The notes beneath the pieces were generated by a model, which saw only the letters and a program-made list of their open reading frames with translations, had not been told where the DNA came from and did no database searches. Source: Symbiodinium sp. CCMP2592 (lineage: Eukaryota; Sar; Dinophyceae; Suessiales; Symbiodiniaceae). From it: a stretch of 64,000 nt of DNA. The stretch spans positions 1,786,923-1,850,922 of the forward strand of contig CAJNDT010000002.1 of NCBI GenBank assembly GCA_905221615.1, in the 5' to 3' direction. Of the stretch, positions 8,651-62,463 are shown piece by piece. Both the position numbers and the translations under genes were made by a program. Positions within the stretch are counted from its first letter, which is position 1; every line of letters starts with the position of its first letter.

Positions 8651-8665
8651 AGGTACTTGCATTAT

Positions 8666-9121: not shown

Positions 9122-9139
9122 GACTGCAAATCTCATGTA

Positions 9140-9845: not shown

Positions 9846-10950
9846 AAAAATGTCTTTCTTCTGATGTCACACGGTAAAAGCAACCCTGTGGTCTTCCGTC
9901 ATGATGTCACAGCTCGCAACAGCCACCCAAGAATTTCACCAAAGCCAGCTCTGCATTTTGGGGTTTAGGGTAGCATTCTGACGCTGACTCCTAGCATGGC
10001 AGAAATGCCCGTGAGTGAACTCCATGGCGCTGTAAAGGATCCGTGCCCGTTCTCCCATGTGATCTTCCCATGCACCTAGCCGGGAACCACCGGCTCTTGA
10101 GGTCCAAGCCAAACATCACCTAGGCCTAGAACTGCTACCAAAAGGGTACCACATCCCCTGTAGCAAAACCTCAGCTCCGAGGCTAGGCATACATGCAAAG
10201 CAACCATTTCCAGACCAATTCGCCAGCCAAAACCTACACTGTATCTGCATTCTTCAGCCACGAGCATCGCGTCTGAAAGCACTACATCGCCCTTGCCCGA
10301 CCAAGTACTTCACATTAAAGCCGGGGCAGCCCCACGTCCTCTACTTGAACGAGGGCATGCTACCGTGCGATGTCTGCCGGCTATGCACAACGCCTCGCCG
10401 TATCAGATGATTCACCAAGCTCATATGCCACAAACTTGATTCTTCTCCGCTCCGATGGTTTGTGCCTCGATTCCCATCCCCGGGCCCCATACGCCCCGCC
10501 GTTTCTGTCGAATAGTTCGTGAAAGTATCGGCATTGCATATCGTTCCTGTCGTATCAACAGTGCATTGATTTATGTCATATTGCAAGCTTACAGCAAGAC
10601 TTCGCAACGGTCCTCGTGAGGTGAACATGCATCTGGTCGTGACATGGAGCTGGCCCAAGACATCCCCAAGCACAGCTCCTTCGCGACCAGAACAACACGA
10701 CATTGCGTGGGAGAGCACCATGGAAAGGATGCCTGGAATCCTGGAAAGCTTGACGTAGTTGTTGTTGCCAAATTGTGGCCGCATCCTGCACATTTCCCAG
10801 CCTATAACCAACAACGGGCACATCAGTCGCTGGCGACGTTACCATGCATGATCTTCGTGTGTTTACTCCACGTGATCTGCACCGGACTGTGTAGTACAGG
10901 TAGAACATCTCGATATCGCAATGTTGAAACTACCTTCAACGTCTGCGACA
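9846..10950. other. Unassigned sequence left of the array
   Basis: One telomere-like octamer (ggtttaggg, near 9962). Opposing open frames of 160 codons (10341-10823, -) and the start of a 217-codon frame (10644-11297, +) lie here. The latter runs through the first array motif and is read as chance. No promoter, RNA gene or domain recognised. Confidence 0.4.
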
Positions 10951-13900
10951 GACCGGACAAATCTTACTCGGCCGGTGACTTGCAAATACAAGGTCCAACA
11001 CAATCTATGTCGGCTGCTTTCACTTTGGTTCAAGCCCTCCAAAACCACGTCTGCTGCCTTCACACGATCCAGGGCCCCGGAGGGCAGAATCACACAGTTC
11101 AAAGGGGTGAAAATGTGAAGAATCCACTTGGTACCTGCCATGTGCATTGTGTTCGCGCAGGTACAGCATCTGCCCCAAATTTTTGTGGGGCACCCCTCTT
11201 CGTTGAGAATGCAACTCACCGAATGGACTCGGGAACGCGGCAATGTACGAGAACAGCATGCCATGTGACGAGCGGACAACCCATAAAGTTAGGCTGAACG
11301 TGCCAAATGCCAAACCCCTTCGCACGACTCGCTGGATTTGACACCTCAAACCCGCAAGGTCTCCAAAAAGACTTCGTGTCAAAACCAACGATCGGCCTGG
11401 GATGTAATGGGTGTCGGTCGATCTGTGACAGAAGCCAAACTCAGCTGACTGCCATCAACTGCTAGCACAGTCCAAAATAATTCATATCTGCTGCTGTTGC
11501 TGTCACTTCGACTTAGCCAATTCAAAATCACGTCTGCGACTGTCACATGATCTCTGGCCCCGGAAGGCAACGTAACAGAGCGTCGCGGGTGCGAACTGCT
11601 CGTCCCATTTTTGCGGCAGGCTCACGGCAATACGTGCGGTGGCTGAAAACTGCAGAAGGATAGCCACACATGCAATAAATACCCGTTGCAATTAAAGCCA
11701 GGGTGATTCAAAGACCTGGAGCCCACAGTTCAATAATATTTTTCTTTCGGTTTTACACCAAACACTGTGTTAGAAGTTAGAAGAGGATGCAATGACTGCT
11801 CTGCAAAGTTTCTTTTTCTTTTCATTGTGCGATAAGAACAAGGCGTGCAACTCGCACTGGCTGAATTCCTGACAACTTCCATGCACGTCACGCTACGAAT
11901 GGCAACTGCGTGTGAGCTCCTCGTAGTCTTCTGCCCACAACAACGACTTGCGGGGATGCAATGCTCTTATTAGCAATCGCACTTACACAGCTCTTGAACA
12001 CCATGCCATGGGATGAACTGCACAACACGAAAACCCCATAAAGTCTGTTTGACAGGTCCCAGAACCTTTCGGTAGGATTTGCTGGACTTGATACGTCGTA
12101 CTGGGTTGATTGCTCGGACTGTAATGTACTGGGTCGCCTTGCGGTCCGTTACAACTGTCAAACCCATCCATTTGCCACTCGTAACGGTCCAGCACAGCTC
12201 ATATTTTTTTTCACGTTGGCCTAAGCCCCCAAAACCACGTCTGCTGCTTTCACAAGATCTAGGGCCCCGGAGGGCGAGTCAAAGACTTTTGCTTGCATCC
12301 AACATGGCTGTTAAGCTTCGGAAGCTGCAATGATCGTTCGGAAAACCAATGTTATGATATTTGGCATGTCGCACCAGTGGAACCAATGCCCTTAGAAGCT
12401 GCTGTGTCAATGCTCCTGCATGTAGTAAACTCCACAAATGCACACTACGAACAAAACTCAACCTTTCTGTGTCGGAGCCCTCATGACTTCCCACGCAACC
12501 GAATACACCCGCGAGTTCCGAAGGCCATGTGATGAAGAAACCTCATGGATAAACTGTTGCAAAAAAAGAAGCCTTCGGGACTTGATCAGTTGCGTCGAAC
12601 CCGCAAAATATGCTCTCACTCCTAAGCCCGCAAAACCACGTCTGCTGCTTCCACAAGATCTAGGGCCCCGGAGGGCGAGTCAAAGAATCTTGCTTGCATC
12701 CAACATGCCTGCTAAGCTTTGGAGGCTGCAGTGGGTGCTCGGAGATCCAACGTTATAGTCTTTGGCATGTCGCAGCCCTTGGAAGCTGTTGCGTCAATGC
12801 TCCTGCACGTTTGTAAACTCCACAAATGCACACTACGAACAAAACTCACCGCTTCTGTGTCGGAGCCCTCATGTCTTCCCACACAACCGAATACAGTTCC
12901 CAAGGCCATGCGGTGAAAAACCTCATGGATAAACTGTTGCATAAAGGAAGCCTTCGGGACTTGACTAGTTGCGTCGAACCCGCAAAATCTCAGACTAGAA
13001 ATCCAAAGGGCGCGACAAGGACAACTTCAAACAACAACCATTAAACTAAACGCCCGGAACCTGACAGGTTTCGCTGAAATTTGTGAGATTTATCAAGCCC
13101 AACCATCGGCCAGGCGCTGTCTGCAAGCTCCAACACAGCTGATGTCTGCGCTCCCAAGTTGGCCCAGGCCCCCAAAACCACGTCTGCTGCTTTCACAAGA
13201 TCTAGGGCCCCGGAGGGCGAATCACAAAATTTTGCTTGCATCCAACATGCCCGCTAAGCTTTGGAGGCTGCAGTGATTGTTGGGAAAGCCATGTTTTAAT
13301 ACTTGGCATGTCGCATTAGTTGAAGTAATGCCCTTGGAAGCTGCCGTGTCAATGCTCCTGCATGTTAGTAAGATCCACGAGTGCACACTACGAACAAAAC
13401 TCACCGTTCCTGGGTTCTGCAGACGCAACCCAATACACCCCCGAGTTCCCAAGGCCATGTGATGCAAAAACCTCATGGATAAACTGTTGCATTAAAGAAG
13501 ACTTCAGGACTTGACTAGTTGCTTCAATCCCGCAAAGTCTCAGACTGGAAACCCAAACACCGCGACAAGGACAACTTCGAACATCTTCGAACAACAACCA
13601 CGTGCCTAAACGCTCGGAACCTAGTGGGTTTCGTGGGGTCTGTGAGATTTATCGAAAGCGCTGATGGTTGTGCTTTCACTTTGGCCGAGGCCCCCAAAAC
13701 CACGTCTGCTGGTTTCAGAGGATCTAGGGCCCCGGAGGGCAAGTCAATGAATTTTGCTTGCATGTAACATGCGCACAATGCTCCGGAGGCTGCAATGATC
13801 TGCAGCGAGTGCTCTGAAAAAACGCTGAATGCTTTTGCTGTAAAAACAGTGGCGCGTACATGCTGCATTGGCTGAATTGATGCCCGTGGAAGCTGCTATG

Positions 13901-16110
13901 TTAATGCTTGTGTATGGTGGTCAGCGCATACGTGTACGGCGCGAACCAAAACCCATTTTATGGTCAGGAACACGGCATGGTTCGTGAACCTGTATGCGCC
14001 CTGCAAGCGAGAAACATGCCCTACCTGCGGTATCACGTTGATGCTCATGCATGATGTGGGTCATGACTCATGCACTTTGATCAGTGCTTTGAGGGTGTGT
14101 GGGGTTTAGGGTTTTCAATGTTTTATGCTTCTGCGGTACTCGTCATGCGATGAGGCGTGCAACAAGAAATCAGCATGAAATCACATTGGTACGTGACAGA
14201 GCCTTCGGGAAGATTGGACATGTCAAAGTTGAAAAGTTCTCAGAACGAAACCTCACAACAACCACCTACCAAGGCAAGGACTTCGTCGAGCAACCTGGCT
14301 GTTGAACATTGTCAAAACCCATCCATCTGTCACCCGCTCGCAGCAAAGGTCCAATGCAGCTTATGTTTGCTGCGTTCACGTGTCCCAAAGCCCCAAAACC
14401 ACGCCTGCTGCTTTCACAATATCTAGGGCCCCGGAGGGCGCGTGTAAGCTTGCTAGCACTCAACATGCGCGACTGCCATGATAGTTCTGAGCAACTTGTA
14501 GCGACCGTGCTGTCAAAAATAGCGGGTGCATGTCGCACTGGCCAAAATAATGCCCTTGGAGGCTGCCGTGATAATGCTCGTGCACGTTAGTTAAGTCCCA
14601 GTCCCATAAACCCGGATTCTGTGGGGTGTATGAGCGAGCAAACTGATGGATTGGACTTTAAAACACTGCGCCGCTCGTGGACGTTGTACAATGCGATAAA
14701 CCGCGCAACAAGCAACCACAATGAAATCCAGCTGGCAGGTCTCACAAGCCCTACTAGATTTGCTAGACTTGGCACGTCGAACCTGTGAGGTCGCAGAATA
14801 AACACTCAAAACAACCACATGCCACGACAAAGACTTAGTCGAGCGATCACTGGCCAAAAGGTTCGGAACCCACTGAGTCCCGCACAGCCTGTAAAGTTAT
14901 CAAATTCATCCGTCTGCCACCCGCTCGCGGCCAGGTCGCACGCAGCTAGTGTTTGCTGCTGCTTTCACTTTGGCCCAAGCCTCCAAAACCACGTCTGCTG
15001 CTTTCACAGGATTCAGGGCCCCGGAGGGCAAGTCAAAGACTTCTGCCGACATCCAACACGTGCACAATGCTCCGGACGCTGCAGTGATTTGAAGCGACTG
15101 CTCTGAAAGTACAAGAAGGCACGTGCATCTTGCACTGGCTGAATTCAAGCCCTTGGAAGCTGCTGTGCTAGTGCCTGTGCATGCTAGTCACTATGAATCA
15201 AGCGCATGCCTTCTGTGTCGGAGCGTCGCCCATGCGTCTGCCCAGGAAAGCGAGCCTTGCGTGAGAGCAAGTCTTTTTCGGAGCAGGCAAGGTTAGGACC
15301 TAGCACTGTTCCTGACCACCAGGCCATGTAATGAACAACACGTACAATAATTGGACTCTCATGAAGTCAGACTGGCACTTGAAAGAAGCCCTCACAAAGT
15401 TTGCGGGGCCTGAAATGTCCAACCCGCCAGCTCTCAGAATAGAAGTCTCTGTACATCCACCTGGTACAACACGGGCATAGTCGAGCAACCACTGGCCAAA
15501 ATGCTCGGAATCCCGCTGGTTCTCGTTGCGGCCTGTGAAAACTGCCAATGCCATCCATATGCCACTCTCTCCAATATGAAGTGACAAGCTTGCAACCACA
15601 AAAAGCCCATCTATACGATAAGCTGTTTCGGTGGGAGCGGGGTGGGATGTGCCCAAGTCAAGATGGCCTCTGGCTTTGGAAAGAAGCTGCGCAGGCTGCA
15701 AGCACGATCTAACAACTCGGTATGCCATGTATCCCTGAAGTCTGTTGTTAAGTGCATGGTTAAGCCATCCTGCCACATTTGATCAAAAGCTCTGTCATGA
15801 AACTGGCGATCAACGCCGTTCACAAGGAGCATCAACCTCACATACATCAAATCCGACAAGATAATATAGAGTCGTACCTTATATACAATACCATATGATA
15901 TACTAGAATGGTTGAATATAAGATGATATCGAATATCTGCGTCTGCATCGCCCGGGTAACAGCTGGAGCCGACTTCTGCCAAGCCCACAGGGCAGATATC
16001 CAACATCAAGCCAAATCTTTAAGAGCCCCGGAGGGCCAACTCACTATGTCGTCCAAGTGTAACGACATCACTCAAGACTCATGCGGGCAAGCGAAATCTG
16101 CGCAATGAAA
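10950..16110 (+). repeat. Array segment I: short units (0.4-1.0 kb) with motif GCCCCGGAGGGC
   Basis: Motif copies at 11074, 11557 (one mismatch), 12264, 12665, 13207, 13729, 14428, 15018 and 16025 give spacings 483, 707, 401, 542, 522, 699, 590 and 1007. In the first eight the motif is preceded by ccaaaaccacgtctgctgc (or a close variant) and, in most, agatctag. It is often followed by caacatgc, a ggaggctgcagtgat-type block and gcccttggaagctgc. The 12264 and 12665 units are the most alike. The 16025 copy already has the other context (tctttaagagCCCCGG), so the family switches there. Minus-strand frames repeatedly read PSGALDxVKAADVVL from this block. It is interrupted by stops and indels between copies, and I treat it as repeat, not gene. 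Confidence 0.8.
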
Positions 16111-16518
16111 CACTTGCATGGAATCTGTACGCGCATCTGTGCGCCAGAACTGAGGCTCATAGCTATGCATGCCACACCTGGCGAGTGCGTCATCTCACCA
16201 ACTTCCCGTCGAAGTTAGACATCGAGGATGAGCACACATGCTTCAAATTTTGCCATGACCCGCGCAAGGATGTCCGGCTGCAAGCCAGAAGCAAATCGAT
16301 TTCCGATCTGATCTGGCAGCTCAGCACACTTTACCCCAGATGACTGTACTCCCCAGCTTCTGATGCAGAGGTGAAACCTGTATCCACGATTGAGGGTGAT
16401 CTACGCATCTTTGAGCCGTGCAGTCATGTATTTGCTCATGTGGAGCACGCATGAAATCAAGACGACCAACACTTCGTCTCAACAACTACCGGCGTGTAAA
16501 CAAGTGTGAGTATGATAT
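16111..16518. other. Unassigned sequence
   Basis: No open frame of note and no clear match to the array units. It separates the last segment-I motif from the MITE at 16519. Confidence 0.4.
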
Positions 16519-16620
16519 GGGGCTTGCCGAAAATAGGGGACCCTAATATTGTACCCTAAATAGTAGGATCCTTATTATAAGGACCCCCAAATAAGGTACC
16601 CCTAATTTTCGGAAGCTCCC
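16519..16620 (+). mobile_element. MITE family A, copy 3, with ATAT target duplication
   Basis: 102 bases. The left end ggggcttgccgaaaat is a mutated GGGAGTTTCCGAAAA; the right end is attttcggaagctccc. The core is ggggaccctaatattgta, agtaggatccttattataag and aaataaggtacccct. The four bases ATAT stand on both sides (16515-16518 and 16621-16624), the expected target duplication. No coding capacity; it would depend on a transposase elsewhere. Confidence 0.85.
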
Positions 16621-16755
16621 ATATGAAGGCAAAAGGCACAGGGCGCGCAAGTCGGATCATCAGACCGGTGGTCGTGGATCGCGTCGCAACGGGGGGTTGC
16701 AGTCTGATCAGCTCTCTTGAGGATGCTATGCAACGGATATACGCTGTTACGTCAA

Positions 16756-16820
16756 TGTATGCGTATATGTAGGTGTATATGCATTTGTATATGTATATGT
16801 ACAGGTATGTGTATACATAC

Positions 16821-16857
<37 letters not shown>

Positions 16858-16866
16858 CGGCCATAT
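16756..16866. repeat. (TATATG/TA)n microsatellite
   Basis: Imperfect gtatatgt/tgtatatg repeats lead into about 26 bases of pure alternating TA (16826-16851). Open frames reading Tyr-Ile or Cys-Ile across it on both strands are artefacts. Confidence 0.9.
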
Positions 16867-16869
16867 GCA

Positions 16870-18640
16870 CGACGTGCGCCGGAGCTCCAACGAAGGTTTC
16901 CATGTGGTTGCTTGCATGCGAGCTGGGGTCAGCCAAATTGCCTGATATGGTTGATCCGGACCATTCTCGGAGATGCCGATGTGAGCACGTCAACGTGCGC
17001 CAAGAAGGCCATCATGCCGCGTCCCGAGCGCGTCGGACCCTGGATGTATAGTATACCGCGGATACCACACCCGTTGCCTCAAGAGCTCTGGGCATCCCAG
17101 ACGTGTAGAACCACTACTGTAGACTCCATCGTTTGTCTGGAGACTAGTTCCCGACAAAGACCGTGCCTCTCTGCCCACGAGTTGGCAAGATACTGACGCA
17201 TGTCTGATGTACGTCTCTGCAGCCGGTGCTGCACCGACGAAGGAGAGCATCGGGAAGAAATACACGGTGTGCTGGTGTGCTAAGATGTAGCCAACACGGT
17301 CCGACCGATAGTGATCTAGACACGTCGCCAAGAAGCAAACCAGCACCCAGGATTTCAGAGTAGACAACATTGGTCTGTGACGGTCGGGCACATGGCCCCA
17401 AAAAAATCTCTTTCTGTAGCATGCGTAACACATGCAGATACTCGTGAGCACTATGATCTTGGCTGACTAGCGCAATGCCACACCACGCAACGACGACGTC
17501 ACACTACCGGAAAGAGACCAAAGTCGTCAGATGGATTTGCCAGGCATGACATACTGAAACTATCAGGTTGGAGAATAGCACATCCACAAGCTGTTGTGGC
17601 CGGGTTCTCTGCAGTGGTGGATACGTTCGAGCTTCTGCTGGCCTGAGCAGTTCATGAAAGCCCTGTAGAACTGCCAAAGCCAAAGATCCATGCTCGTATC
17701 TTCACGTCGAAACAGCCCAAGGCATATGACAAACCTAGCAACTAGCACTTGACAAACTCGTCGGGGAGCACACACAGGGCTGGCGAAGTTGGGATGGAGC
17801 GTGTAACTGATTTCCGATCTGGAAGCACGAAGGCATGGAAGTGCTCAATTCCTTCGGTGGTGTCCGCTTGGCTTAGACGAGGAACCAAAGGCCTCAACTG
17901 TCTGAGATTCTACCCGGTAGCCTACCTGCCGCATCTCTCTCCCCTACACGTGAGTCCCCCAGCTCATTCTTACCCACCTCTTGAGAGACGCATGAAGCTC
18001 AAGAGCCAGCAATCGGAAACCGACATTTCCAGTTGACCTCCAGGCGAGACGTCGGGGCAAGGTACCAGAGTGAAGCGAGAATCGCATCCAGGAACACAGG
18101 CTTCTGGGAAAAGACTATGCTGAAAGCACCGGAAGTGCACACCACCTGTAAACCTTTTGTCCTTGAGAACACACCCTGAGGTAGCTTGCACCGAAGAAGA
18201 GTTTTACCTGGTGTTGCCAAGCCAAGGCTTCGATACTGCTGATAAATCTCAAGCCAATTTCTTGCAAATAACATCCCGCTGCTGACTTGAACGATCCCAC
18301 TTGGTGCTTGCAGCTGCTTTGTGAAGTCAACCCATCAGAACCTCGGAAATATCGATGCGAATGTGCCAACGTAGGCAAAGAGGACAACCACCCCGGCAAC
18401 TGAAAGACCAAGGCATGACGCATGTTTTAACATCAGGGAGAGGCTGCTCCTGGAGGAGGATCCAGGTGAGCACACACTGCAACAAAAAACTCGGGGATAC
18501 GAAAGGTTCAGGAGAAGCTGCTGTTGCCGTACCAATCGATAGCAACGTCATCGTGCGAAGTTGAAAGCAACGTGTCTGGCTCGATGTAGGCATGCGAGAT
18601 CCGAGAACCCCAAATCCTGGACGCATACTAAATCTTCAAG
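16870..18640. other. Poorly resolved array remnant; no recognised gene
   Basis: Short stretches recall array units (for example gcacttgacaaactcgtcgg near 17746), but I cannot align whole units. Open frames of 153 codons (16990-17451, -) and about 100 codons (18115-18626, -) show no family features. Either strongly decayed array DNA or unrelated filler. Confidence 0.3.
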
Positions 18641-18750
18641 AGCCCCGGAGGGCAAGGTTACCATGCCATAGAAATATGCACAGTGCTCGTGGCGATGGAA
18701 GCCTTGTGCACGTGCCGCATAAGCCTGAATGGCAAGTGCCGTAATGCAGT

Positions 18751-18823
18751 ACACATATACATATACATCTACATCTACATCTACATCTACATCTACATCT
18801 ACATCTACATCTACATCTACATC

Positions 18824-18889
<66 letters not shown>

Positions 18890-18943
18890 CATACACATAT
18901 ACATACACGTATACACATACATATACATATATGTATATACACT

Positions 18944-18975
<32 letters not shown>

Positions 18976-19040
18976 AATTCATACTTATCTATGTATGTTT
19001 ATACATATACATACGTGTATATAAAAATATATGTATGCGG
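18751..19040. repeat. Compound microsatellite (ACATCT)10-(ACATAT)n-(TA)n-(TG)n
   Basis: Ten perfect ACATCT units (18765-18824), then ACATAT units, about 18 bases of TA, mixed acatac/tatatg, and a GT run ending near 18975; imperfect TA/TG continues to about 19030. It yields frames reading Asp-Val, Tyr-Thr, Arg-Cys or Tyr-Ile repeats on the two strands, none of them genes. Confidence 0.95.
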
Positions 19041-20198
19041 ACCCATGTACATTAGCATAATGGGTTTAGTGTCTAGCGTTGCAAGCATGAGCTCGAGCAA
19101 AGCACGCGGATTACACTTCGGATCTTTCCGGACCTGTATGTTCGGCGTGGGGATGCCGCAAGCTGTCCATTGATGAAAAAATGTCAACGTCGAGGGAACG
19201 GAGTGCTCGGACATGATGGCACAACGCCGTGCTATAGACTTGCGACCACCACGGCGCGCGATGAACTACAGTTGACACTAACGACAGCATCAAGTCAAAA
19301 GAAAATGCTCACAACGAAAATCCACGGCCGACACTGCCCAACCTGTAAGGTTGGTGCTATTGAGGACCAAGATCCCCTTCAGAAATGCAACCAAAAAATA
19401 CACGGTCGAGCTTCCACCCCACGAGCCGATGTACTTGACAAACTCTTCGAGGAGGTGGGGTGAAATGATGTCCAACGCAATCTGGTGGAAAGTTTCTACA
19501 CTGCCATGACGCGTTGTGTAAGCCAACCTGATTTCCGATCTGCAAGTTTGTCATTTCGCAAGGAAGCGGCTGAATCAACTGAGAAATTCTACCTGACACA
19601 TGCATCAAAAGGGTCCCGGGCTCCTATGGGCTGCTTCACACCGGCTTGTAGTCTTGTCTGGTTCCGTTGTACGTCAGCATGGAGGCTGCATGAAACCAAG
19701 ATCTCATCAGGGACCTACACAGAACAAAGACCACGACATCCCCAATGTTCACGACGGCTGCATGCTTCAATTCTTGTTCACTGCGCCTTTTGCCTCGCCT
19801 GCTGAACTGCCCCATGAATGTAGACTGCGGACGACGTCAGGAGCTTCGCGAATAATAGTTGCTAATGTTGCTGAAACTCAATCGGCCAGACGTTTCACAT
19901 GGCATCACCCACCAGCCTAAAACTCAACCTCACGCTCCTGAAAGGCCTGGGTGAACTTCGACATCGAACCGCCGGACATGCCATGGACATCACCGACAAC
20001 ATAGCAGTCTCCAAGCTCTCCCACAAAGCTGAAAGACTATCTCATCACACATGCGGTGTTCGAGAAGCGGTCGCTCTGAAAGATCTATGTCGTTGAGTCC
20101 ATCGGAAAACCTATTCGACGAAGTGACATCGTAGAATGTTGCTTGTGAACCGGCATTCGGGGGGCACATGCCGAGGACAAGACAGGTCTGCTGATGTA

Positions 20199-20290
20199 GG
20201 GGCCTTCACAATTGGAACAGGATTCTGGGTATATGATACTACAATTATAACAGGGAACCCCCAAAACCCTATTCTAATTATTAAGGCCCC
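20199..20290. mobile_element. MITE family B, copy 4, flanked by TA
   Basis: Left terminus ggggccttcacaattggaac, right terminus ccctattctaattattaagg plus cccc, inverted relative to each other. The centre is tatatgatactacaattata. TA lies directly outside both ends (20197-20198, 20291-20292), as expected for a TA-targeting element. It sits about 90 bases before the motif at 20378, inside the repeat array, so it inserted after the array formed. Confidence 0.7.
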
Positions 20291-20377
20291 TATTTTACCG
20301 TGGCTGTTTGCAGGGACCCCTGTTAGACTGAAGGTCCGACTCATCTCGAGTTCGACTGACCGCAGCTCCCATAAAGC

Positions 20378-34565: not shown

Positions 34566-34643
34566 TATATGGAACCCTGGTCAAACTCTTAAGGCCCCTA
34601 TACTATATGTAGCATAGTACCCGCTTTGATCCCTTATCGTAAC
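34566..34643. mobile_element. Insertion resembling MITE family B, fragment
   Basis: Other units read gccgtacacg directly into cttgcatcgttgagtcatc. Here about 78 bases intervene, including cttaaggcccctatactata, a family B right terminus. The left half of the family is missing or unrecognisable. Ends are inferred by comparison with paralogous units. Confidence 0.4.
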
Positions 34644-34704
34644 CTTGCATCGTTAAGCCATCTGGCTGCTCGAACCTGTAGGCTCTTCGTCTTGACATGC
34701 CTAC

Positions 34705-49964: not shown

Positions 49965-51370
49965 AGGGCGACGATGGGCCACGTGAGAATGTCATCGAAG
50001 GCGAAGCCATCAAACTGCACAATGCTGGGAAGAATGCCTTGATTACCGGAACAATTCTGACTCCTTGAGATTGTGCCGTGAAACTTTGACACATAGTTCT
50101 GCCACACTGGCTGCACCGTCACGGGTTTATCTTGCACGATGTTGAGGCCGGCATCTTTTCAAACCCCACCTGCCAAGACAAGGACGTACTAGCACTCCCA
50201 CATGACGAGAACCGACAGGATGTTGTTACACTCCCCACAGGCCTACACGCCGTGACCGCGACCACAACAACCAAGCCTGTTCCTCCTGCTGCATGCCACG
50301 ACATATTCCTCGGGCCTGACATGTCTGAAAATTTGACCAACTGTTCGATGGGCAAGGAAGTCCACCGAAGTTCAAACTTGGAAAGTGACACCTCTGCCAT
50401 GCTGCGGAATGTGAGCCCGCTGAGTTCATCTGAAAGCTTGGTCTTCTCCGGATTTTGCACGGCGGACCTACATGTATTAACGGTACCAGATGTCTCAACT
50501 GTGCAAGAACGGCCTCTCAAAAGTCTTATTGTTTCCTATGTGCGGCTGCATTCGTACTTAAATCGTTGAGACATCTGGTTCCGTATTACCGTGCTCATGC
50601 CTGGAGGCTGCTTGCAACCCGATGTTGTCAGCGACAAAAGACAACACTCTGTCATGACGATCACACAGGACGTCGGGGGAAGGGACAGGTCATGTACTTC
50701 ACATCCTTCACCACATCCGTGCTCGAAACGATAATGCTGACAAGAGATGATGCTGACCAAGATCATGTCGTTGTCTTCAATGACACACATAGCGACATGG
50801 AAACCACATTCTTCAGAAATACCATGAGGTAGCACACGTGTGCACACAAAGCTTACCCGGGTGTCCCCAAGCGAAGGCATCTGCTGCTACCGCACTTCCC
50901 AAGAATGCACCCTTCGTCATGAACGATGTGCAAAGGTGGTGCTCATCAAACGAACTTCAAACCTGCGCCGCGGCGCCTCCTTGCCTAAACTTACTTTGTG
51001 AAGTGCCGGAGAATCAAAAAAACTCTGCGAGTGTGGCGACATAGTAAGGCAAGACGACAACGATGTACTTTCATGAAGCATGACCGCTTTGAACCATGAT
51101 TGCTGCTTCAGCTGCGCGAACCTCAATGTGTAAAGGGCGAATGCTCTATGATGCTCGGTACCTCCCGACAACTCATGTAGCGACGTCGTGCCCGCTGAAA
51201 GCCTCCCAAACGTCATCGCCGTGCGGACTAGAATACTGCTCTGCAAGACAGTGTTCTGGTGGCACACATCTCGACGAATATCTGCGTTTGAGGACACATG
51301 GGACGGTTCCGATGTCGTAGTTGTCTTTACAGGTTCGCCGCATGAGACTTATCAAACACAAGCTGGAAGA
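49965..51370 (+). repeat. Core unit 9 (full, 1406 bases, half motif)
   Basis: Starts with the half motif after tgtagcga. The tail is long but again has the direct join aagctg to gaagagCCCCGG, as before unit 1, so the unit-1 and unit-10 boundaries share an independent deletion. Confidence 0.85.
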
Positions 51371-53030
51371 GCCCCGGAGGGCGACGATGGGCGACGGCAG
51401 AATGTCATCGAAGGCGAAGCCATCAAACTGCACAATGCTGCGAGGAATGCCTTGATTACTGGAATAATTCTGACTCCTTGAGTTTGTGCCGTGAACCTGT
51501 GACACATAGTTCTGCCACACTGGCTGCACCGTGCCGGGTTTCGCTTACATGATCTTGAGGCCCGACATCTTTTCAACCGCACCTGCCAAGACAAGGACGT
51601 TCCAGCACTCCCACATGTCGAGAACCGACAGGATGTTGCTACACTTCCCACAGCCCTACACGTCGTGACCTCGACCGCAACAACCAAGCCTGTTCCTCTC
51701 GTTGCATGCCACGACATATTCCTTGGGCCTGACATGTCTGAAAGGTTGACCAACTGTTCGATCAGCAACGAAGTCCGCCGAAGTTCAAACTTGGAAAGTG
51801 AAACCTCTGCCATGTCGCGAAATGTGAGGGCCCGCTGCTGAGTTCATCTGAAAGCTTGGTCTTCTCCGGATTTTGCACGGCGGACCTACATGTATTAACG
51901 GTACCAGATGTCTCAACTGTGCAAGAATGGCCTCTCAAAAGTCTTATTGTTTCCTATGTGCGGCTGCATTCGTACTTAAATCGTTGGGACATCTGGTTCC
52001 GTATTACCGTGCTCATGCCTGGAGGCTGCTTGCAACCCGATGTTGTCAGCGACAAAAGACAACACTCTGTCATGACGATCACACAGGACGTTGTGGGGAA
52101 GGGACAGGTCATGTACTTCACATCCTTCTGCACAGCCGTTCTCGAAAGATGATGCTGGAAAAGAGTACGTCAATGTCTTCAATGACACATAACCACATTC
52201 TTCTGACATGCCACGATGACGCACACGTGCGCACGCATAGCCTGCTCTGGTGTTCCCAAACGAATTGCTATCGTACTTCCCAAGGAATGCACCCTGCTGC
52301 ATGAGGACTTCGTCATAAACAATGTGCAAGACTGGTGCTGAACGAACGAACTTCAAACCTGCGGCGCCTCGCTGCCTAAACATACTTTGTGAGTTCCCAA
52401 TTAAATCAATCCAAACCAATCACGTCGGAGAAATGTCTGCGAACATGTCGACATAGTAAGGCAAGACGACAACGATGTACCTTCACGAAGCATGACTGCT
52501 TTGAACATGATTGTTGCCTCAGCTGCACGACCCTCAAAATGTAAAAGGCGACTGCTCTACGATGCTCGGTACCTCCCGGCCAATTCATGTAGCGACGTCG
52601 TGCCCACTGAAAGCTTCGCCACACTGATATTCACCGGTACAGCCGTTCCGAATGCATACCACCTGCCCGAATCACACCTCCCACACCTGAAAGCGCTGAG
52701 AGAACTCCCACATCGACACTTTGAGTGGACCTGTCGTGGACCTAATCGAGAACATGGAACTCTCTCGAGAAGTGCGTCGAAGCTGAAAAAACGATGGCAT
52801 CATGGGTACGAAGTTCATGGAGAGGTCGTCCTGAAAGGTCTCTATGTTTGGTGGTCACGGGGCCAAACTGCTGCCTTCGTAGAATTCAGTCTGGCTGTCC
52901 GATTCAATGGCAATGTTGTCATCGTGCGTACCGCTCTGCGCAACATCGCTCAAAAAACACGTCTCGACGACACACTGTCTTCTAACATGCAAGACCCCGC
53001 CCCGCATCACTCAAACTTAGATCTTCAAGA
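51371..53030 (+). repeat. Edge unit (1660 bases)
   Basis: Exact leading motif. The first 1.2 kb is core-like (nearly identical to unit 9 around 51840-52090). The last 400 bases switch to the diverged long form, with a block near 52620-52830 (caccggtacagccgttccga, cctgtcgtggacct) that core units lack. It marks the right limit of homogenisation. Confidence 0.75.
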
Positions 53031-53150
53031 GCCCCGGGGGGCGGAGTGCAAATGTCATCGAAGGCGAAAGCATCCAAAAGCTGTACCAGCAAACTGCAGG
53101 AGCTGGGAAGCATGCCTTGATTACCTGGAGATTGACGTGGAGGGATGTCT

Positions 53151-53253
53151 GGGAGTTTCCAAGAATAGGGGACCCTAAAATTGCACCCTAAATAGTAGGA
53201 TCCTTGTCATAAGGACCCCCAGAATAAGGTACCCGTAATCTTCGGAAACTCCC
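53151..53253 (+). mobile_element. MITE family A, copy 5
   Basis: Left end GGGAGTTTCCAAGA, right end cttcggaaactccc, core ggggaccctaaaattgca and gtaggatccttgtcataagg. 103 bases. Inserted in a segment-V unit just after its motif. Flanking bases (gtct/ctat) do not give a clean duplication. Confidence 0.85.
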
Positions 53254-53346
53254 CTATGCAGGTAGAGAACACATCGTGGCTCGCAGAACTCTGACATGGA
53301 ACCCACGGTGTCTCCAAGGAAACTGCAGAACACGGCACATCCGAGG

Positions 53347-53381
53347 TTTAGGGTTTAGGGTTTAGGGTTTAGGGTTTAGGG
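53347..53381 (+). repeat. Interstitial telomeric insertion, five perfect TTTAGGG
   Basis: Five perfect TTTAGGG copies in the middle of an array unit, between acatccgagg and ttaaagccttcgacaagctg. Sister units have ordinary unit sequence here (for example gtactcgccaaagccttcgc near 36289). Perfect copies imply a recent event relative to the eroded tracts near 3-7 kb. Confidence 0.9.
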
Positions 53382-56300
53382 TTAAAGCCTTCGACAAGCT
53401 GGACCTGATACTGCAAGACCCACATGGAATACACCGCCATTACACGATCTTGCGGCCTGTGTGTCTCTTCACAACGACCTGACACGAAAAGGATGCCTAG
53501 ATGTCCGGAAACAACTGGGTTTTGTAACACTTCCCACCGGCCCACATGGCGCGATCATAACAACCAGACCATTGTTCTGCAGTGAGGCTAAGGAGTACCA
53601 CTGCGTGCGGCCGTTGAAAGTAGAGCTGGAAGGGATCTTCCAACTGTCGTCCATGAAACATAGAACACATCGAAACCATTTCCTTGAGACGCATCCCGAG
53701 GCCTCAAGTTGCGCATGGAAAGCCTCACCCGGTGCTCTGATTGGAGAGTTGCTACTGCTAGTTTGACAACAAGTCCGACAACTTCCGATGAATACATCCT
53801 GCTGCTCAGCACTGTACCTTGAATGATGTCCAAGTCTGCTGCTTAACATAGCTTCGAAGCTCTGTTGCCTGCAACTGTGAGGTCCTGACATAGCCAGTCC
53901 AACCCAACCCCGGAGATTTGCCTCAAAACATGTCACCGTAGCGCATGTAGGGGCAAGAGGACGACCACGTGTCACCCCCAACTTTCATGCTAAACGCGTG
54001 CTGTGAAGAATATTTTCTCACCATGCCAGTTGCATCAACTGCTGGAAGAAGCTGCAAGATATGAAGAGCGACTGCTATCTCATGCTCGACACCTCCTGAC
54101 AGATTGATGTACACCCATCATTTCCGTCGAAAGCCTCACCACAGACACGCACGCGCACAGACACCGATCTTCGATATTCACACCTCGTGATGTTGCAAAT
54201 CAAAGGCATACGACTTTCATTCACGGGCCTGAAAGGAAAACCCGCGCACCCGAAATTTCTGAATGAACTCTGCGCCTGGACATGTCCTGGATTCCACCGG
54301 CAAAATGCGATCTTTGCGAGATCCCACAAAGTTGTAAAACAACGGCATCGCATGGTCGAAGTTCCTGAGGAAGTCACCCTTAACTCCGTGCGGTACGAGG
54401 TGTCGGCATGGTGCAACTCGACGACAATGTCATGGTGCCTTCTGCACGTGCTCTGCAAAATGTTGCTCCAATTCGTTCCCATATCACATCTCGACAAAAG
54501 ATCTTTATGAGGACAAGCGGGACGGTTCCGATGGCATGGTTGTCTTTGGGGGTTCCAACATGAGACATGGCAAACACAAGCTACAACTTCGCGGGAGCGT
54601 GCAAGATTTTGCTGGGGCACACAAGTATAGTGCACTGGCTTGAATCGTCGATGAAAACTTCGTCCGTGCAATCGCAGGGTTTAGTGTCTTGCAAAAGCCA
54701 ACCACTCGACATCGAAGTTTGTCCTGTTTCTGCTGCACCGGGAAGCCACCAAGCCATAGAGAAAGCTTCCATGTAGGTATGTGCAGGTAACACTTCGAGG
54801 GTCGGCTCACAGAACTCTAAATACTCTAAAGTTAAACCAACATGGAGCACGTGGTGCTGCTTGTGAACACAATGGTTTGTGATGAACTGCTCATCGGACA
54901 ACCAATGAAAGTATACGGTACTCGTGAAAGCCTTCGGAAAGCTGCACCTGACAATGCAAGACTGCAAGGCTCAAATATAACGGTGCTTAAACGAACCTGA
55001 GGCCCAGTATCTCTTCAACACCAGCTGCCACGACAACGACGTGGTAGCTGAATACGCTGACCTACATCCTGACCCGGCTGGAGGTTGCAAAACTGCCCAC
55101 AAGCCCGCTGTTGCCTGACCAACGCCCAAAGTACGTATTTGGCCAATCTTTGCACCAGCAATCTTGAGAAACTGTTGGAAAGCAGATGCCATCCGGTGCT
55201 GCCATACATACGCCCCGCGATCTCTGCTCTGAAAACTCCAAGCCTCGCACACATCCTACTCGGCTTATCATGTGCAAGGAACCAGACGACGCAACTCTGA
55301 TGTAAGCATCTGAACAGCCTAATTTCTCCTGCACACATACTTGTGCCGTTGAGTCATCTGGATCCTGCTTACACTTACACATGCAATTCCCGTCCAATCA
55401 GACGCCAACACTTCGTCTTAACATGCACATACGACGTCGGGGAAGGCGACAAGTCGCGAACTTCACATCCTTGATCACAGCCGTCATCGAAAACACGATG
55501 CTGAAAATCGAGCTTTTCGGTGCCCAAGGGATTTCAGTGACACATGCAGCACACACGAAAACCGTGTCCTTGACCCGAAGGTACCTGAGGAAGGCCCTGC
55601 TGCTAGGTTGCAACCAGAACTCCACGCACTTGTGACTTGCGTCTACACAAGAACTAAAGAAACCTGCGCAGCCTCGCTGCCTAGAAGTGTTTTCTGAGGT
55701 ACTGCTCTATCCAATCCAACGACCGCAGAAGACAACCACGAACCTTCTTGTTAATGCGTGGGCTCCTTTGCACAATGCTTGCTGACCGTACACTTCGCAT
55801 GAACTGCTGCAGGTCCAACCCACAAAGCTGCACAATGGCATCGCACGTACGAAGTTCATGGAGCTCTGCAAATCTAGCAAATGCAAACGCCGCTCTAGTG
55901 CTCCACTGTAGTAGTAGGATTCGTTGTAGTAGCGCGATTCATTGTCCTCATTCGTACTGCTTTTGCTCCGCAGGACTGTTCTTGTAGCAAATGAATTCCA
56001 ACTTAGCCCGATCCGACATCAATAAAACTTCATCTTAAAGAGCCCCGGAGAGCTGAGTCACAATGCCACCGAAGGTGAAGAAGGACATGGAAAACTTCTG
56101 ATAGCGTTCGCAAACTGCACAAGGCTGGGAAGACTGCACTGCTGGCCTTGAACCTTTCTGACTTGCTCTGTGCTGCACGACTGGGGCAGGCGGTGATGGG
56201 TTTTGTGACGGGCTAGCACATGCACAAACAAGGTCCGCTAAGTCCAACTTTCAGTGGAGGTCAACACAGCGGTGGTGGCTCGCTGAACTCTGAAATGAAG

Positions 56301-58314
56301 CCAATGGAAGCCACGACGTAGCGCACGAAGCCCGTGAAGACCATGTCTCATGAACCGCAGAACACTGAGAAACATATTTAGTCACACTAGGTCTTGATGT
56401 CGGAAAGCCTGGATGTGACACTCCATGACTTGTCCTACCGTTTTAAAGCTTTCACTCTCTCGAGATTCATCTGCATGTAGTCGAGGACTGGTTGTCCTGA
56501 ATGTTCAGAACCGGCTGGATCTCGTCGGACTGCCTAGAAACTCACACCATGTGACCACCACAGCCTCTCGATCTGTATTTGCCGATATCAAAACGCTTGA
56601 CAGCCCGACATACTCGACCAAATTTTCGAGGAGTACAACGTTCTGCCGAATTTCAAGTGTCTGGAAAGTGGATGCTCAGCCATGCAAGGTGTAAGTCCAT
56701 TGATTTCCGGTCTGAAAGCTCGGTAGCAAACACGCTCAGCTGACATGTGCACGGAGCCAGGTGACGCAACTCTGCGAAATTCTGCACGGAGGATCTCTCA
56801 TGCCTTACGTACTGTTGTCCTAACGCTGATGACGTTGAGTCGTGTTTAGAAATGAAACATCAAACCTGCACACACTCCACCTGCAATCATGTCGTGGGGT
56901 CCTAAAATAACCTCTCCAGGTAAACCTGGGAGATGCACATGCGAACGTGTCAACATAGGGCCACAAGACAACCACACTTCTTTCTTGACATCCATGAAGC
57001 ATGACTTTTTTGACAATGCTGGTTTCCTGTACCCAGTGAACCAGCTGCTGTGCGAACCTCTCAAAGTGTAACAGGCAACTGCTTTCTGCTGATGTGTAAC
57101 TCCTGTCGCCTTCATGTAGTGAGTCATCTCTTTCGAAAACTACCTACACATACTGATGCAGATGTCTCTACTCTACCGCCCAAACTGACATTCCGATTGC
57201 ATTCCAATGACGATGAAAGCAAACCTCGCACACCTCAAGCGAATCTGCTCTCTGTCTTTGTGGATCCGGGGAAAACCTGCCGTAGCGGTACGATTCGCTG
57301 TGGTGGCTCGATTCGACGGCAATGTCATGGGATGTGCGGCTCGTGCTCTGCAAGACTGTTGTTCCGGTGACACCCTTGGGGACATAGTGGGACGGTTCCG
57401 GGGCATCGCCAACCGAGACTTGGCAACCACACGTTCCCACCTGGCCCGGGCATGCTCGAGCTGTACACGTATAATCCAGCATCACTCAAACCAAATCTTC
57501 AACAGCCCTGGAGGGCAGGGTCGCGATGCGATGCCTTCCATCGAGGGGTGGGCTCGCAGAAGTCGGTCTCTATGAAGCTCACGGAGATACTCGTGAACAC
57601 CATGGTGTGCTACGAACTGAGTTCCGATGATGTCATACTCGGAGTCGGGAAAGCCTTTGTAAAGTTGACAACGCAAGACTACGAGGCTGAACTATGAAGT
57701 ACTTTATGCTTACACGTTCTTGAGGCCCAATACCTTTGCAAAGCCACCTGCCAGGAAAAGGATGTACCGTAGTGGAGTGATGGATGCCCGCATTGTCCGG
57801 AGAAGTCGACCAAGCTGCAAAATTTAAAACTCACTGCTTTCGGATCTGAAAGTTGCGCAACACTCGAAAAAAATCGCACAGGCGCAAACACTCTACGGCT
57901 CGACACGTGCAGGCAACCAGATGCTTCAACTGTGTGACATCTCGCAGCATCTCGACCACCATGCGGTCTTGATATGCAGACAGGACGTCGTGGGAAGGGA
58001 CAAGGCACGAACATCACATCCATGACGACTGCCTTCGTCATAAGGACGATGCTAAAATAGACCGAGTCTGCATGGCAACGGATCTTCAATCACACATGCA
58101 CCATATTGGAGCCACCATACCCTTGAGAAATACTCCGACTGGTTCTCTCGAATGAAGGCGTCTACTGCTGACAATGCCCTCCTGACGAATACTGTATCTG
58201 CTGCTGCTAGGAACTCTGCATGAACCATGTGCAATGATTACGAGTGAACATCAAGCCTGCACAGCCTCGTCGCTTGCGACTGTTGTGTGAGGTCCTGACA
58301 TAAGCACTCCAAAT

Positions 58315-58415
58315 AGGAGTTTCCGAAAATGGGGGACCCTAATATAATACCCTAGATAGTAGGATCCTTATTCTAAGGACCCCAAAATTAGGTACCCCTC
58401 TTTTCGGAAACTCCC
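58315..58415 (+). mobile_element. MITE family A, copy 6, with AAAT target duplication
   Basis: 101 bases: aggagtttccgaaaat at the left, ttttcggaaactccc at the right, with the standard core. AAAT stands on both sides (58311-58314, 58416-58419). A sister unit keeps the empty site aatccaaatcaacctgg at about 60050-60066, where the left flank ends ccaaat and the right begins aaatcaacc. This is the clearest boundary proof for the family and supports a 4-base target duplication. Confidence 0.9.
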
Positions 58416-61400
58416 AAATCAACCTCGGAGATGCTCATGTTGCACAGACGAAGACAACCACACAGCGTCCTCAATCTTCATGATGCACGAGTGATGAAGT
58501 AGGCGTCTGTTTACTGGAGCCATTGCCTCAACTTCTGTATACGAACCTGTTTGAAAGGCCACTGCTCTCCCCCCATTGCTGTCCCGTCCAATCGGACTGA
58601 CCCGTCGTTTCCATTCAGTAGATTCGCGCGACACATCCGACCTCCAAACGAACAGCATCCTCGTACACCTGAAAGTCTTGAATGAACTTCGCCATCGACT
58701 CCGTCCGAAACACACATCGTGGACCTGACCGATATTAAAGAGCTTTTTGCAAGATCTCCCACACACATACTGAATTGTCGCTCACAAACTCTGTGCCGAT
58801 GAGGAAGCCCGTTGTCCCGGAGAGATTCTATTCAGTGCTTCGCTTCGAACTAAGTCGGGTCTGCAGGACTTCGCTCTGATCAAACATCTCGATGGAAAGA
58901 TCTGCACTTGAGGACAACTGGAAGGGTTCCGCTGGCCTGGTTGATGCGATTCGATGTTTCGAAGACAAGTTGAAAGCCTGGTTCGAGCTAGACATGCAAG
59001 ATCCTGAGGCTTGGCAAAGATAAGTTAAAAGTCTAAGTCCCACCTCACTCAGAACAAAAGCTTCCGGAGCCCCGGAGGGCGGAGTCACACTGTCGTCGAA
59101 GATGGAGGAAGACATCGAAAATCTGAAGGATGCTTTGACTTCCGCAGTTCCGACACGGTTATGCCGGACTCGCTGCAACTAGCGACGCGTTGTCCACGCA
59201 CCCTTTTGGATTTGGTGTTGCATGCAGCATGCACACAAAGAAAGCACACTCTTCGACTTCCAACTTTATCTTGCCACCAACTCTTGGTAGAGGTAAACAC
59301 ACCGAGGGAGGGCTCGCAGAAGATGCCACCCTGTAGCAAACGGTCTGCTTGTGAAGATGGCGTGCTCTGAACTGCACAACACTGAGAAACCAGATGAACA
59401 GATGATAGTCATACGGCTACTTGCCAAAGCCCGCGCAAAGCTGACAATGCAAAACGGAAAGGCTGAAATGCACACTGCTAACAGCTACAAGATCCTTAGG
59501 TCCAATATCCATTCAAAACCACCTGCCACGAAGAGGACGTAGTGGAGCACTAGGCTGACCTAATGTCAGGAAAGGATTTCGTCACAGCTCACAGGCCAGG
59601 ATTTTGTGACCACAACAATCCGTGCTTCTGCGACTCCTTGCATGCCAAGGCGTACAGCTTGGAACTGACAAGCGACCGATTATTCGTAATGACAACCGCT
59701 CACGACCTTGGGGAAAGGGACTGGTCACGTGCATCGCATCCATGACGACAGCCTTCATCGAAAAGACGGTGTTGAAAAAGAGCGTGTCGGCATAGCGAGG
59801 CATCTTCTAAGACACGCGGGGTCTTCAATGACATGTATACCATACGGAAACCATTTCACCGAGGCAACAACATGTGCACGAAAAGCGTGCTCTGGTGCTG
59901 CCGCTAGATTGCAACCAGACCTCCACGTACTGCCATACTGTTGCTAAAGATTTTGCCACTTACGATTCGCAAGACTTGTGTTTACAGATGAAACCCAAAT
60001 CTGCGCAACCTCGCTGCCTGTCAGTCATTCTGCGAGGTCCTGAAATACCAATCCAAATCAACCTGGAAGAAGCACATGCGCGGATGTCAAACATAGAGCG
60101 AGAAGATGAACGCAGTCACACATCATCCTCTGCATGAAGCTCGAAGTCTGTATATCAGGCGACTGCTTTCTGTACCTCCCGTCTATTTCAGACAGACCTG
60201 TTGTTTCCGTTTGAAAGATTCGCGACACCTCCGATGGGTCTGCGTTTAACGCTGCATTTCAGCACCCGCCATCCTTCGAAGAAGCCTGAAGCACCCGAAA
60301 ACACTGTAATGCCCACAAAGATCTGCCACAAAGCCTCGAAACGACGTGATACTGGATGAGAAAGAACGGTCGCCCTGAAAGATCTGTGGCGCTGCGGGGA
60401 ATCTGACATAGTTGTGCGGGTCGGCATGGTTCGATTCAATTAGCTATGTCATCGAGCGTACTGCCTGTGCTTTGAAGCACTTGCTTCTGCAAATATATCT
60501 CGACGAAAGATATTCGCTTGAGGAAAAGGGGTGCGGTCTCGATGGCATGGCTGTCTTCGATGTTCCGCCACATGAGCAAGTTCCAACCTATCTTGACCGA
60601 GACACGTAAGATGCGACATCACTCAAACCAAGTCCCGTAGAGACGGGTGGTCTCCTGCTGGACTGTGAAATCTGCAAAATGCTTTGGAAGACGCCTTGAC
60701 AACCATGAACGCTTCTGACTCGCGGTCCCTGTCTTGTCAACCTGGGAAACATTGCCGAACAAACAAAAGAGACCGAAGCCCAGCATACACAACAACAAAG
60801 TAGACCGCTTCCGGATTGTAGCTTTTCCTGCTTCTGTTGCACGGGGATGCCACCGAGCTGTATAAAGCCGTCGTGGTGGTCGGTGGAGGTGCACACATCG
60901 TGGGTGGCCCGGCAAAGGTTTAAAATGATGAGCTACGATTCAACGAATGGAACTGCTTATCAACACGACGGTGTGTGGTGAGCTGCACATGGCGAACCGA
61001 GGAAGTCAACCTGGTACTTACAAAGGCCTTCCCAAAGCTGGACCTGATAGGCTCTGCGAAACTGCACAGCTAGAACACGAACTGGCCCGCTATCTCTGCA
61101 ACACCATCTGCGACAAAAAGGACATGGTGGAGCACGGGCTGCCCTGAGTTCTCCAAGACCGACTGAGTCTGCTTCAAAGCGCAGATGTCATGACCACAAC
61201 AGCCAAACCTCTTCGTCTGCGATGCATTGCATGACAAGAAATACCGCCTGCATCCCACCAGCCTGCATCTTGCATACTTGACAAACTGTTCCAATAGCGC
61301 CGAATTTCAAGCGTCCTGTGGAAATCCGATACTCTGCCATGCTGCAAGGCGTATTGCAATCCTGGAAAACGCAGACACAAACACTCTACAGTGCTACAGT

Positions 61401-62463
61401 TCGACACACGCAAGAAAGTCCTGAACTGTGTGTTCGTTGCATACATGTGGGCCATCTAGATGCTCCTTAAATACCGCTGTGCACGCAATTACTGCTGCAG
61501 TGGACTCATCTGTATCATTGTTGCCGATGAAGAGCGTGAAAACAAAACCACGCAACATCTTCCCGAGTCTCACTGTGGCCCACCGCTGTCTGTACTTCCC
61601 GTCCCGTGCACCCGGCGTTTCAATCCATGTGCCTGCTCTTGATCATGCATTCCATCCATTGCCATCCTTAAAGGAAACCTCAAAGCTGAAAGGCCGAGTG
61701 AACTTCGACATCAACTCTCTGGACATGTCGTGGACCGACAAAACTCATAGAGCCCCTTGCAAGATCTCCCAGACAAAGTTCATGAAGGAGTCGCTCACAA
61801 AGGATGTTATGGGACGATAACTTGGCCTGCTGACGCGGTAAGGTTCGCTGTAGTGCTTCGTTTCGATTGAATGTGGTCGAGAGAGCTCGGCTCGACTTCG
61901 TTCTGGCACTACAGGACAGGTGGGGGGCGCTTGTCTTCAAGCTTTCGCGACAAGAGCTTGGCAAACACGAGCTTCAAAGTAGTTCGAGCTAGACACGCAA
62001 GATCTGAAACCACACAATTCAATCAAATCTTCCAGAGCCCCGGAGGGCAGAGTCACAATGCTATCGAAGTTGAAGAAAGATAGGGATCGACCTGCCGTCT
62101 GCTCGCGCGGAGGGTACCGAACCGAACATGTCAGTCAAGACCCTGCGCATGATGGTAGGACCGCTGGGTCGTGAAGGCGGACTTCATGGAGAGGGCTCTT
62201 CCACGGAAAACAATCGAAGGAGCAGAGCATGATGAAGTAACGTACCACTCCACGGCAAAATCTTCAGTCACCCTACTTCTCGCACTCCGCGCAGGGACTT
62301 GAATACTGCTGTGACACGAAATCCTAGACCCAGAAACCCCGAAAACTTGAGATGTGGTTTGCTACCTTCAGGGTCTCATCAGATCCTGGAGAGCCAATAG
62401 ATGGCAGACTGGATCAACATCACAAAACCTTCGAAATAGAAACATTCCAGCACCCCGGAGGGT

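Follow-up and report, generated by a model that had tools for sequence, protein, structure and literature searches.

A tandem superarray with a conserved fold-back hairpin in Symbiodinium sp. CCMP2592, a possible cluster of hairpin RNA genes

Layout of the array and its unit types

The stretch of DNA analysed here (the window, 64,000 nucleotides (nt), positions 1,786,923–1,850,922 of contig C2, CAJNDT010000002.1) belongs to the assembly of the dinoflagellate Symbiodinium sp. CCMP2592 (1.10 Gb, 5,383 contigs). It carries a head-to-tail tandem array of diverged units, each recognised by a short motif at its head, which fall into a block of short type-i units followed by a block of longer type-ii units (Table 1; all positions are in window coordinates). 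Most type-ii units contain a fold-back hairpin, the arms of which are the best-conserved stretches of the unit in diverged copies.

The 14-mer GGGCCCCGGAGGGC (up to two mismatches) occurs 31 times in the window, 30 times on the same strand, where 0.25 occurrences are expected. Head profiles run on both strands identify eight heads of type i and 32 of type ii, every one of them on the plus strand; the profiles were built from 23 of these 40 heads, and a fragment at 58,962 was excluded. Head positions give a spacing of 401–707 bp for type-i units, and type-ii units are spaced 1,044–2,602 bp apart, with outliers of 3,039 and 440 bp. An original prediction, made from the letters of the window, had described a ladder of more than 35 diverged tandem units, with a constant internal block order from about 20 kb on, that form a single family whose centre is young and homogenised and whose flanks are old. 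The ladder is real, and the other parts of this description hold as well. Pieces of a profile of ten young units follow one another in the same order from 18,150 to 61,346, and on the opposite strand this profile matches only through its own palindromic hairpin block (12 matches).

The self-comparison proposed with that prediction yields 371 same-strand off-diagonal BLAST pairs in the window, microsatellite pairs included, and the matches are neither missing nor confined to a 12-base motif. Among these pairs, identity is 89.6% between 41992–47221 and 45965–51183, 78.6% between 23355–25325 and 25669–27659 and 74.4% between 12626–13277 and 13168–13799. Units of the young centre (37.8–52.6 kb) are 80–95% identical, the region at 22–30 kb consists of older copies (65–91%), and shorter units lie at 12–15 kb. 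The type-i and type-ii units look homologous because, for some type-ii heads, matches to the head-i profile extend outside the motif (29,231–29,323, E-value 2.1e-5; 26,655–26,774, E-value 1e-4). A segment of about 265 bp that ends in the head motif is present in some young units only, being missing before 43238, 45965, 47222 and 49964; its edges lie at short GCGA/GAGGGC repeats by the head motif, which fits either a microhomology deletion or an insertion.

The array does not stop at 62,463, where the original prediction had placed its end. Units of a third type, type iii, carry it on in unchanged orientation as far as about 76.4 kb. The exact 12-mer of the head, GCCCCGGAGGGC, is found 350 times genome-wide (102 for the reversed control); at least 37 of these places lie within 74 kb on contig C2, on one strand only, of which 24 fall in the window and 13 beyond its right end. 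Among the matches listed (100 of 350), the 63 places outside this locus form no cluster. In keeping with a dinoflagellate origin, the 21-base dinoflagellate spliced leader is present in 429 exact copies genome-wide and in none when reversed. The 13 right-hand places, at 66.2–76.4 kb, mostly head type-iii units of about 800 bp that are mutually 76–97% alike, and a type-iii-like stretch also lies left of the type-i block, at 1,271–2,710. A search with one type-iii unit returned matches at this locus only, which is a lower bound, as a neighbouring second type-iii subtype was missed. The type-ii profile finds no match in the 9.9 kb to the left or the 29.8 kb to the right of the window. The locus is a superarray of about 65 kb, or 75 kb counting outlying motifs, in which at least three unit types share a head motif that can fold as a hairpin.

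The 12-mer is common to three otherwise differing unit types. Its minus-strand reading, GCCC-TCCG-GGGC, makes up a stem of 4 bp closed by a loop of the UNCG type. Pairing was scored in 43 heads that align gap-free; the count leaves out nine heads carrying insertions or gaps and all matches falling short of the motif. The 172 pair cells comprise 162 Watson–Crick pairs, six G-U pairs on the minus strand, two G-U pairs on the plus strand and two broken pairs. This excess of six over two for the minus strand is no proof of strand. The best-conserved stretches of type-i units in a conservation scan are the motif and, about 30 bases before it, CAAAACCACGTCTGC (0.96 versus a mean of 0.60), giving the layout CAAAACCACGTCTGC...GGGCCCCGGAGGGC.

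The fold-back hairpin of type-ii units

The original prediction had overlooked the hairpin, unit type iii and the fact that the array extends past the window. The fold-back is revealed by the young-unit profile matching itself in reverse at model positions 579–682. Old units carry the arms AAGGAACCAGATGCCTCAACTG and CGTTGAGTCATCTGGTTCCG or close variants, and the loop varies in length and sequence. A covariance model of the hairpin (R1; 18 training hairpins, including 17 window copies) detects 24 copies in the window with E-values below 0.01 and one with 0.83, so that 25 of the 32 type-ii units carry one hairpin each, 425–980 nt past the start of the head match with a single exception at 2,314 nt. 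The hairpins measure about 90–125 nt from arm to arm. In old units their arms form a duplex of about 20 bp that has few mismatches, and in young units a longer one; a 20–22-bp arm duplex with few mismatches is present in 11 young and about seven old hairpins. Folding was scored as z against 200 dinucleotide shuffles on the two strands. The 11 young hairpins score from -4.1 to -8.3 on both strands, and seven older ones (at 22.2, 23.6, 25.9, 27.2, 28.5, 36.7 and 55.3 kb) from -1.1 to -4.6.

The main evidence that the fold-back is kept, and not the repeat as such, comes from a comparison of 21 diverged units picked by their heads alone. The ten young units from 39001 to 51353 and the head at 62403 were excluded, and the unit at 37306 was cut to 454 bases. 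Each of the 1,259 19-mers of the young consensus was scored by the agreement of its best ungapped match in each unit (mean 0.641, standard deviation 0.027). The top six 19-mers all come from the arms (0.734–0.747), and ten of the 12 best-conserved overlap the arms, the remaining two being at 47,281 and 47,391. Loop and flanks drift across the diverged units. The 5'-arm 19-mer starting at 47746, which takes in variable outer bases, ranks 58th, and the one shifted by three bases ranks 8th. This test replaces an earlier comparison of 12 units, the conservation figures of which were inflated because its units had been picked for good 3' arms.

Table 1. Features of the array in window coordinates (for hairpins, + is the strand modelled)
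Feature	Position	Strand	Evidence
Type-i block, eight units	11002..15113	+	head-i profile, conservation scan
Type-i heads (first motif base, GGGCCC...)	11072, 11555, 12262, 12663, 13205, 13727, 14426, 15016	+	
Type-ii block, 32 heads	15973..62476	+	head-ii profile
Type-ii head match starts 1–16	15973, 18575, 20375, 21567, 22881, 24265, 25492, 26593, 27797, 29169, 30213, 31932, 33699, 35834, 37306, 39001	+	
Type-ii head match starts 17–32	40428, 41918, 43246, 44682, 45977, 47234, 48625, 49976, 51353, 52957, 55996, 57450, 59024, 60577, 61963, 62403	+	
Young homogenised centre with higher-order duplications	37766..52617	+	self-BLAST, ten-unit alignment
Segment of ~265 bp ending in head motif	41727..41991	+	alignment of ten young units
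Hairpin, decayed	19555..19678	+	R1 E 0.0036; fold = shuffles
Hairpin, decayed	20947..21061	+	R1 E 9.6e-5; z near 0
Hairpin, old, sound	22227..22345	+	R1 E 1.5e-23; z -3.0/-4.1
Hairpin, old, sound	23590..23724	+	R1 E 1e-30; z -2.3/-2.5
Hairpin, decayed	24852..24962	+	R1 E 4.5e-11; z near 0
Hairpin, old, sound	25917..26050	+	R1 E 3.7e-27; z -2.2/-2.4
Hairpin, old	27174..27287	+	R1 E 3.2e-22; z -1.7/-1.9
Hairpin, old	28513..28626	+	R1 E 2.4e-22; z -1.8/-2.8
Hairpin, decayed 5' arm	29759..29871	+	R1 E 1.3e-16; z near 0
Hairpin, decayed	30974..31093	+	R1 E 8.4e-5; z near 0
Hairpin, weak	32689..32805	+	R1 E 1.1e-24; z -0.7/-1.5
Hairpin, old	36711..36817	+	R1 E 4.9e-24; z -1.8/-1.1
Hairpin, young block	38109..38228	+	R1 E 6.2e-39; z -6.4/-5.4
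Hairpin, young block	39519..39638	+	R1 E 3.5e-39; z -7.7/-5.6
Hairpin, young block	41005..41124	+	R1 E 2e-38; z -6.3/-4.2
Hairpin, young block	42495..42614	+	R1 E 2e-38; z -6.3/-4.2
Hairpin, young block	43743..43862	+	R1 E 2e-38; z -6.3/-4.2
Hairpin, young block	45256..45375	+	R1 E 2e-38; z -6.3/-4.2
Hairpin, young block	46477..46596	+	R1 E 1.8e-39; z -7.8/-6.0
Hairpin, young block; arms about 47746–47767 and 47828–47849	47740..47859	+	R1 E 6.2e-39; z -8.0/-8.3
Hairpin, young block	49205..49324	+	R1 E 9.7e-39; z -5.8/-4.8
Hairpin, young block	50475..50594	+	R1 E 8.3e-38; z -5.3/-5.8
Hairpin, young block	51893..52012	+	R1 E 4.7e-37; z -4.1/-4.5
Hairpin, old, sound, 2,314 bases past head	55271..55377	+	R1 E 1e-21; z -3.6/-4.6
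Hairpin remnant, doubtful	56746..56861	+	R1 E 0.83; no fold
Type-iii-like stretch, 72–91% by piece to units at 67.5–75.6 kb	1271..2710		self-BLAST, window and flanks
Copies of MITE-like palindrome (see text)	771–848, 9739–9846, 16524–16620, 34707–34811, 53150–53253, 58317–58415		

Relatives in the genome, family searches and neighbouring features

The type-ii unit has hairpin-bearing relatives at a few further loci. With one young unit as the query, a genome search returned at least 40 pieces, a lower bound because the young copies of the window are absent among the matches listed. Tandem relatives are found on contigs C990 and C95 and others on C335, C2319, C3348, C3979, C2557 and C5342 (69–91% by piece). 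If up to two mismatches are allowed, the 1.1-Gb genome has 68 occurrences of the hairpin arm, as against 12 of the reversed control. Of the 68, 31 fall in the window and 14 in units at other loci, 18 belong to one unrelated dispersed repeat and five have no unit around them. In each of five near-identical segments, on C491, C5100, C5194, C5270 and C5342, a span of about 550 bp holds one head and two hairpins. The second of these hairpins differs from the window hairpins in both members of two stem pairs, which remain paired (A-U to C-G and A-U to U-G). The five-copy segment (L017–L021) is 2.3–5.7 kb long and 96.5–99.8% identical between copies, as might result from recent segmental duplication or from a mobile segment. 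The four fetched copies of the dispersed GTTGAGTCTTCTGGTTCCC repeat (L056–L059) share at least 99.5% identity over 1 kb; the repeat, located at 18 places by its arm-like 19-mer, was therefore counted as one event. On C5240, an arm with a single mismatch stands without a surrounding unit and in no clear gene.

The original prediction had found no recognisable product or family. Indeed, no Pfam or Rfam family explains the units, but the unit does hold a conserved hairpin. At the gathering score, Rfam assigns no family in the array and nothing in the nine loci fetched; the only match in the window is a 5S ribosomal RNA-like sequence outside both unit blocks. A tRNA model search found no tRNA. Rfam matches below threshold (microRNA (miRNA) families on AT microsatellites, PVT1_3 at 24,561 and 28,220) were taken as chance. 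No Pfam domain scores above cut-off in the ten reading frames scanned, the best match being Rgg_C (E-value 0.0042, 17.3 bits versus 27). Among the titles and abstracts listed by searches of the dinoflagellate literature on small RNAs, microRNA precursors, hairpins, satellites and tandem repeats, no comparable array is described. Six 14-base arm strings in a paper on parrot mitogenomes were judged to be chance matches, and two exact patterns sought in viral_contigs are absent there.

The 5S-like sequence (1865–1994, minus strand, 61.3 bits) lies within the type-iii-like region; with several mismatches and about 8 additional bases in one place, it is perhaps a pseudogene. A palindrome of about 100 bp resembling a miniature inverted-repeat transposable element (MITE), with ends like GAGTTTCCGAAAA, is present in both orientations in copies that are 76–83% similar, and some of these interrupt array units. 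The window also contains a 100-bp palindrome with a very stable fold (35057–35156, -66.6/-69.6 kcal/mol), a perfect 50-bp palindrome (62930–62979), interstitial telomere-like tracts (AAACCCT / GGTTTAG) at 3274–7086 and 53345–53383, and a 93-bp tandem repeat at 3459–3819. The left flank carries a copia-like element (RVT_2, 33 bits), with gag-pol on the minus strand at 973–9923 of the fetched locus L013; its first long frame holds CCCH zinc fingers and a sub-threshold match to a 2OG-Fe(II) oxygenase, which is odd for a retrotransposon. The right flank has an open frame of 3,277 amino acids ending in a sub-threshold RNase H match.

Possible function and comparison with known systems

We tentatively favour the reading, drawn from sequence, that the locus is a tandem cluster of miRNA-like or small interfering RNA-like hairpin RNA genes, partly decayed. 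The genome has ten Piwi matches on six contigs and one RNase III domain. One strand would be transcribed through the units, the fold-back with its variable loop would be cut by an RNase III enzyme, and one arm would be loaded into an Argonaute protein, which it would guide to RNAs of matching sequence. Duplication within the locus, most recently in a burst at 37.8–52.6 kb, would multiply the hairpin, and redundant copies would decay. The short head motif, foldable as GCCC-UCCG-GGGC, may point to a promoter or to a site of processing. In a further step that we regard as possible but rather doubtful, the locus would be a lineage-specific small-RNA cluster growing by local tandem duplication, an independent protist counterpart of the tandem miRNA clusters of mammals. 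The likeness proposed is one of working, not of membership.

Several observations weigh against a small-RNA cluster. Seven of the 32 type-ii units have no hairpin, six of the 25 hairpins (at 19.6, 20.9, 24.9, 29.8, 31.0 and 56.7 kb) show no gain in folding over shuffles, and that at 32.7 kb is weak; the array therefore mixes sound and dead copies. A search of the type-i and type-iii units found other inverted repeats and no hairpin of the type-ii family, which therefore leaves part of the array unexplained. Within the young block, the arms vary like the remainder of the unit (4 of 19 and 1 of 16 columns, 24% overall), so recent copies look redundant. G-U pairs in the arms point to both strands, and in an RNAalifold analysis of 18 first-kind hairpins no pair had changed on both sides. 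None of the 20 published Symbiodinium small RNAs compared, of 21 from S. microadriaticum (PMC3853145), matches the window with fewer than five mismatches. No convincing target was found either, arm matches outside the family being at chance level or belonging to one dispersed repeat.

A rival reading is a low-copy complex satellite, in which the head 12-mer and the inverted arms would act as DNA, as protein-binding or cruciform sites, and no small RNA would be made. The CENP-B box of alpha satellite is a short protein-binding motif kept among diverged tandem units, and the Symbiodinium array is similar in that its diverged units share a short conserved motif, here across three otherwise differing unit types. 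Its single orientation, homogenised centre and old flanks would be expected of a satellite, as would arms that are kept as sequence, almost without compensatory change and without strand bias. However, a conserved stem with a free loop is what an RNA hairpin would show, and, unlike CENP-B-box satellites, the array consists of a few dozen units of mixed type at one locus, with an inverted repeat in most type-ii units. The 'long-lived satellite' of the original prediction thus stands as to tandem structure, but not as to copy number: the units run head to tail, and the numerous, widely spread copies that mark a satellite are not seen, the arm occurring at 68 places, 31 of them in the window. We consider the low-copy satellite somewhat unlikely as an explanation, though it deserves attention.

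That the array derives from tandem protein-coding genes, clustered and now decayed, with the head as one of their small exons, is improbable. Tandem gene copies are frequent in dinoflagellates, young units contain open stretches of up to 213 amino acids, peptide-like similarity appears near the head in some frames, and splice-like pyrimidine-AG stretches can be seen by eye. Nevertheless, the frames break between units, the peptide-like strings near the head occur on both strands, and only 26 of the 149 gap runs in the young alignment are multiples of three, i.e. insertions and deletions ignore triplets. With the Pfam result, these findings led us to drop the head as coding sequence, though they leave some room for spliced genes with very short exons. 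One stretch of the young alignment shows a weak periodicity of three bases (chi-square 8.5), which fails given the number of stretches tried. Still less probable is a MITE-like insertion into the ancestral unit that was then copied as a passenger. MITE-like palindromes are common in the window, but the arms of a passenger should decay like the rest of the unit, and it is the arms that are conserved best in diverged copies.

If the locus is indeed a cluster of hairpin RNA genes, then young, old and dead hairpin copies, together with outgroup copies in the same genome, would make birth, constraint and decay readable at one locus. The locus would then bear on how miRNA genes of single-celled eukaryotes are born; accepted miRNA genes in these organisms are described as few in the texts of PMC3853145 and PMC11014262. 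Should the locus produce no small RNA, it would still be unusual, as a satellite confined to one place in which an inverted repeat is conserved.

Among dinoflagellates, S. microadriaticum is reported to have homologues of Dicer, Argonaute and HEN1, as well as fold-back precursors of 84–90 nt with products of 21–22 nt (PMC3853145). The array hairpins come near the length of these precursors, but that study appears to present no tandem array, and the word 'tandem' is absent from its main text. The closest parallel appears to be the mouse cluster C2MC in intron 10 of Sfmbt2, which the text of PMC3212979 describes as a head-to-tail array of pre-miRNAs, 55–65 kb long, with a unit of 296 nt. Both loci hold tandem units with hairpins, in a regular, recently expanded centre and irregular flanks. 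The C2MC unit is specific to its locus, and related species differ greatly in their working hairpins (PMC3212979). Unlike the annotated miRNAs of C2MC, which lie in an intron of a known gene, the hairpin genes of the Symbiodinium array are predicted from sequence, and its units, of several types and 0.4–2.6 kb long, belong to a protist.

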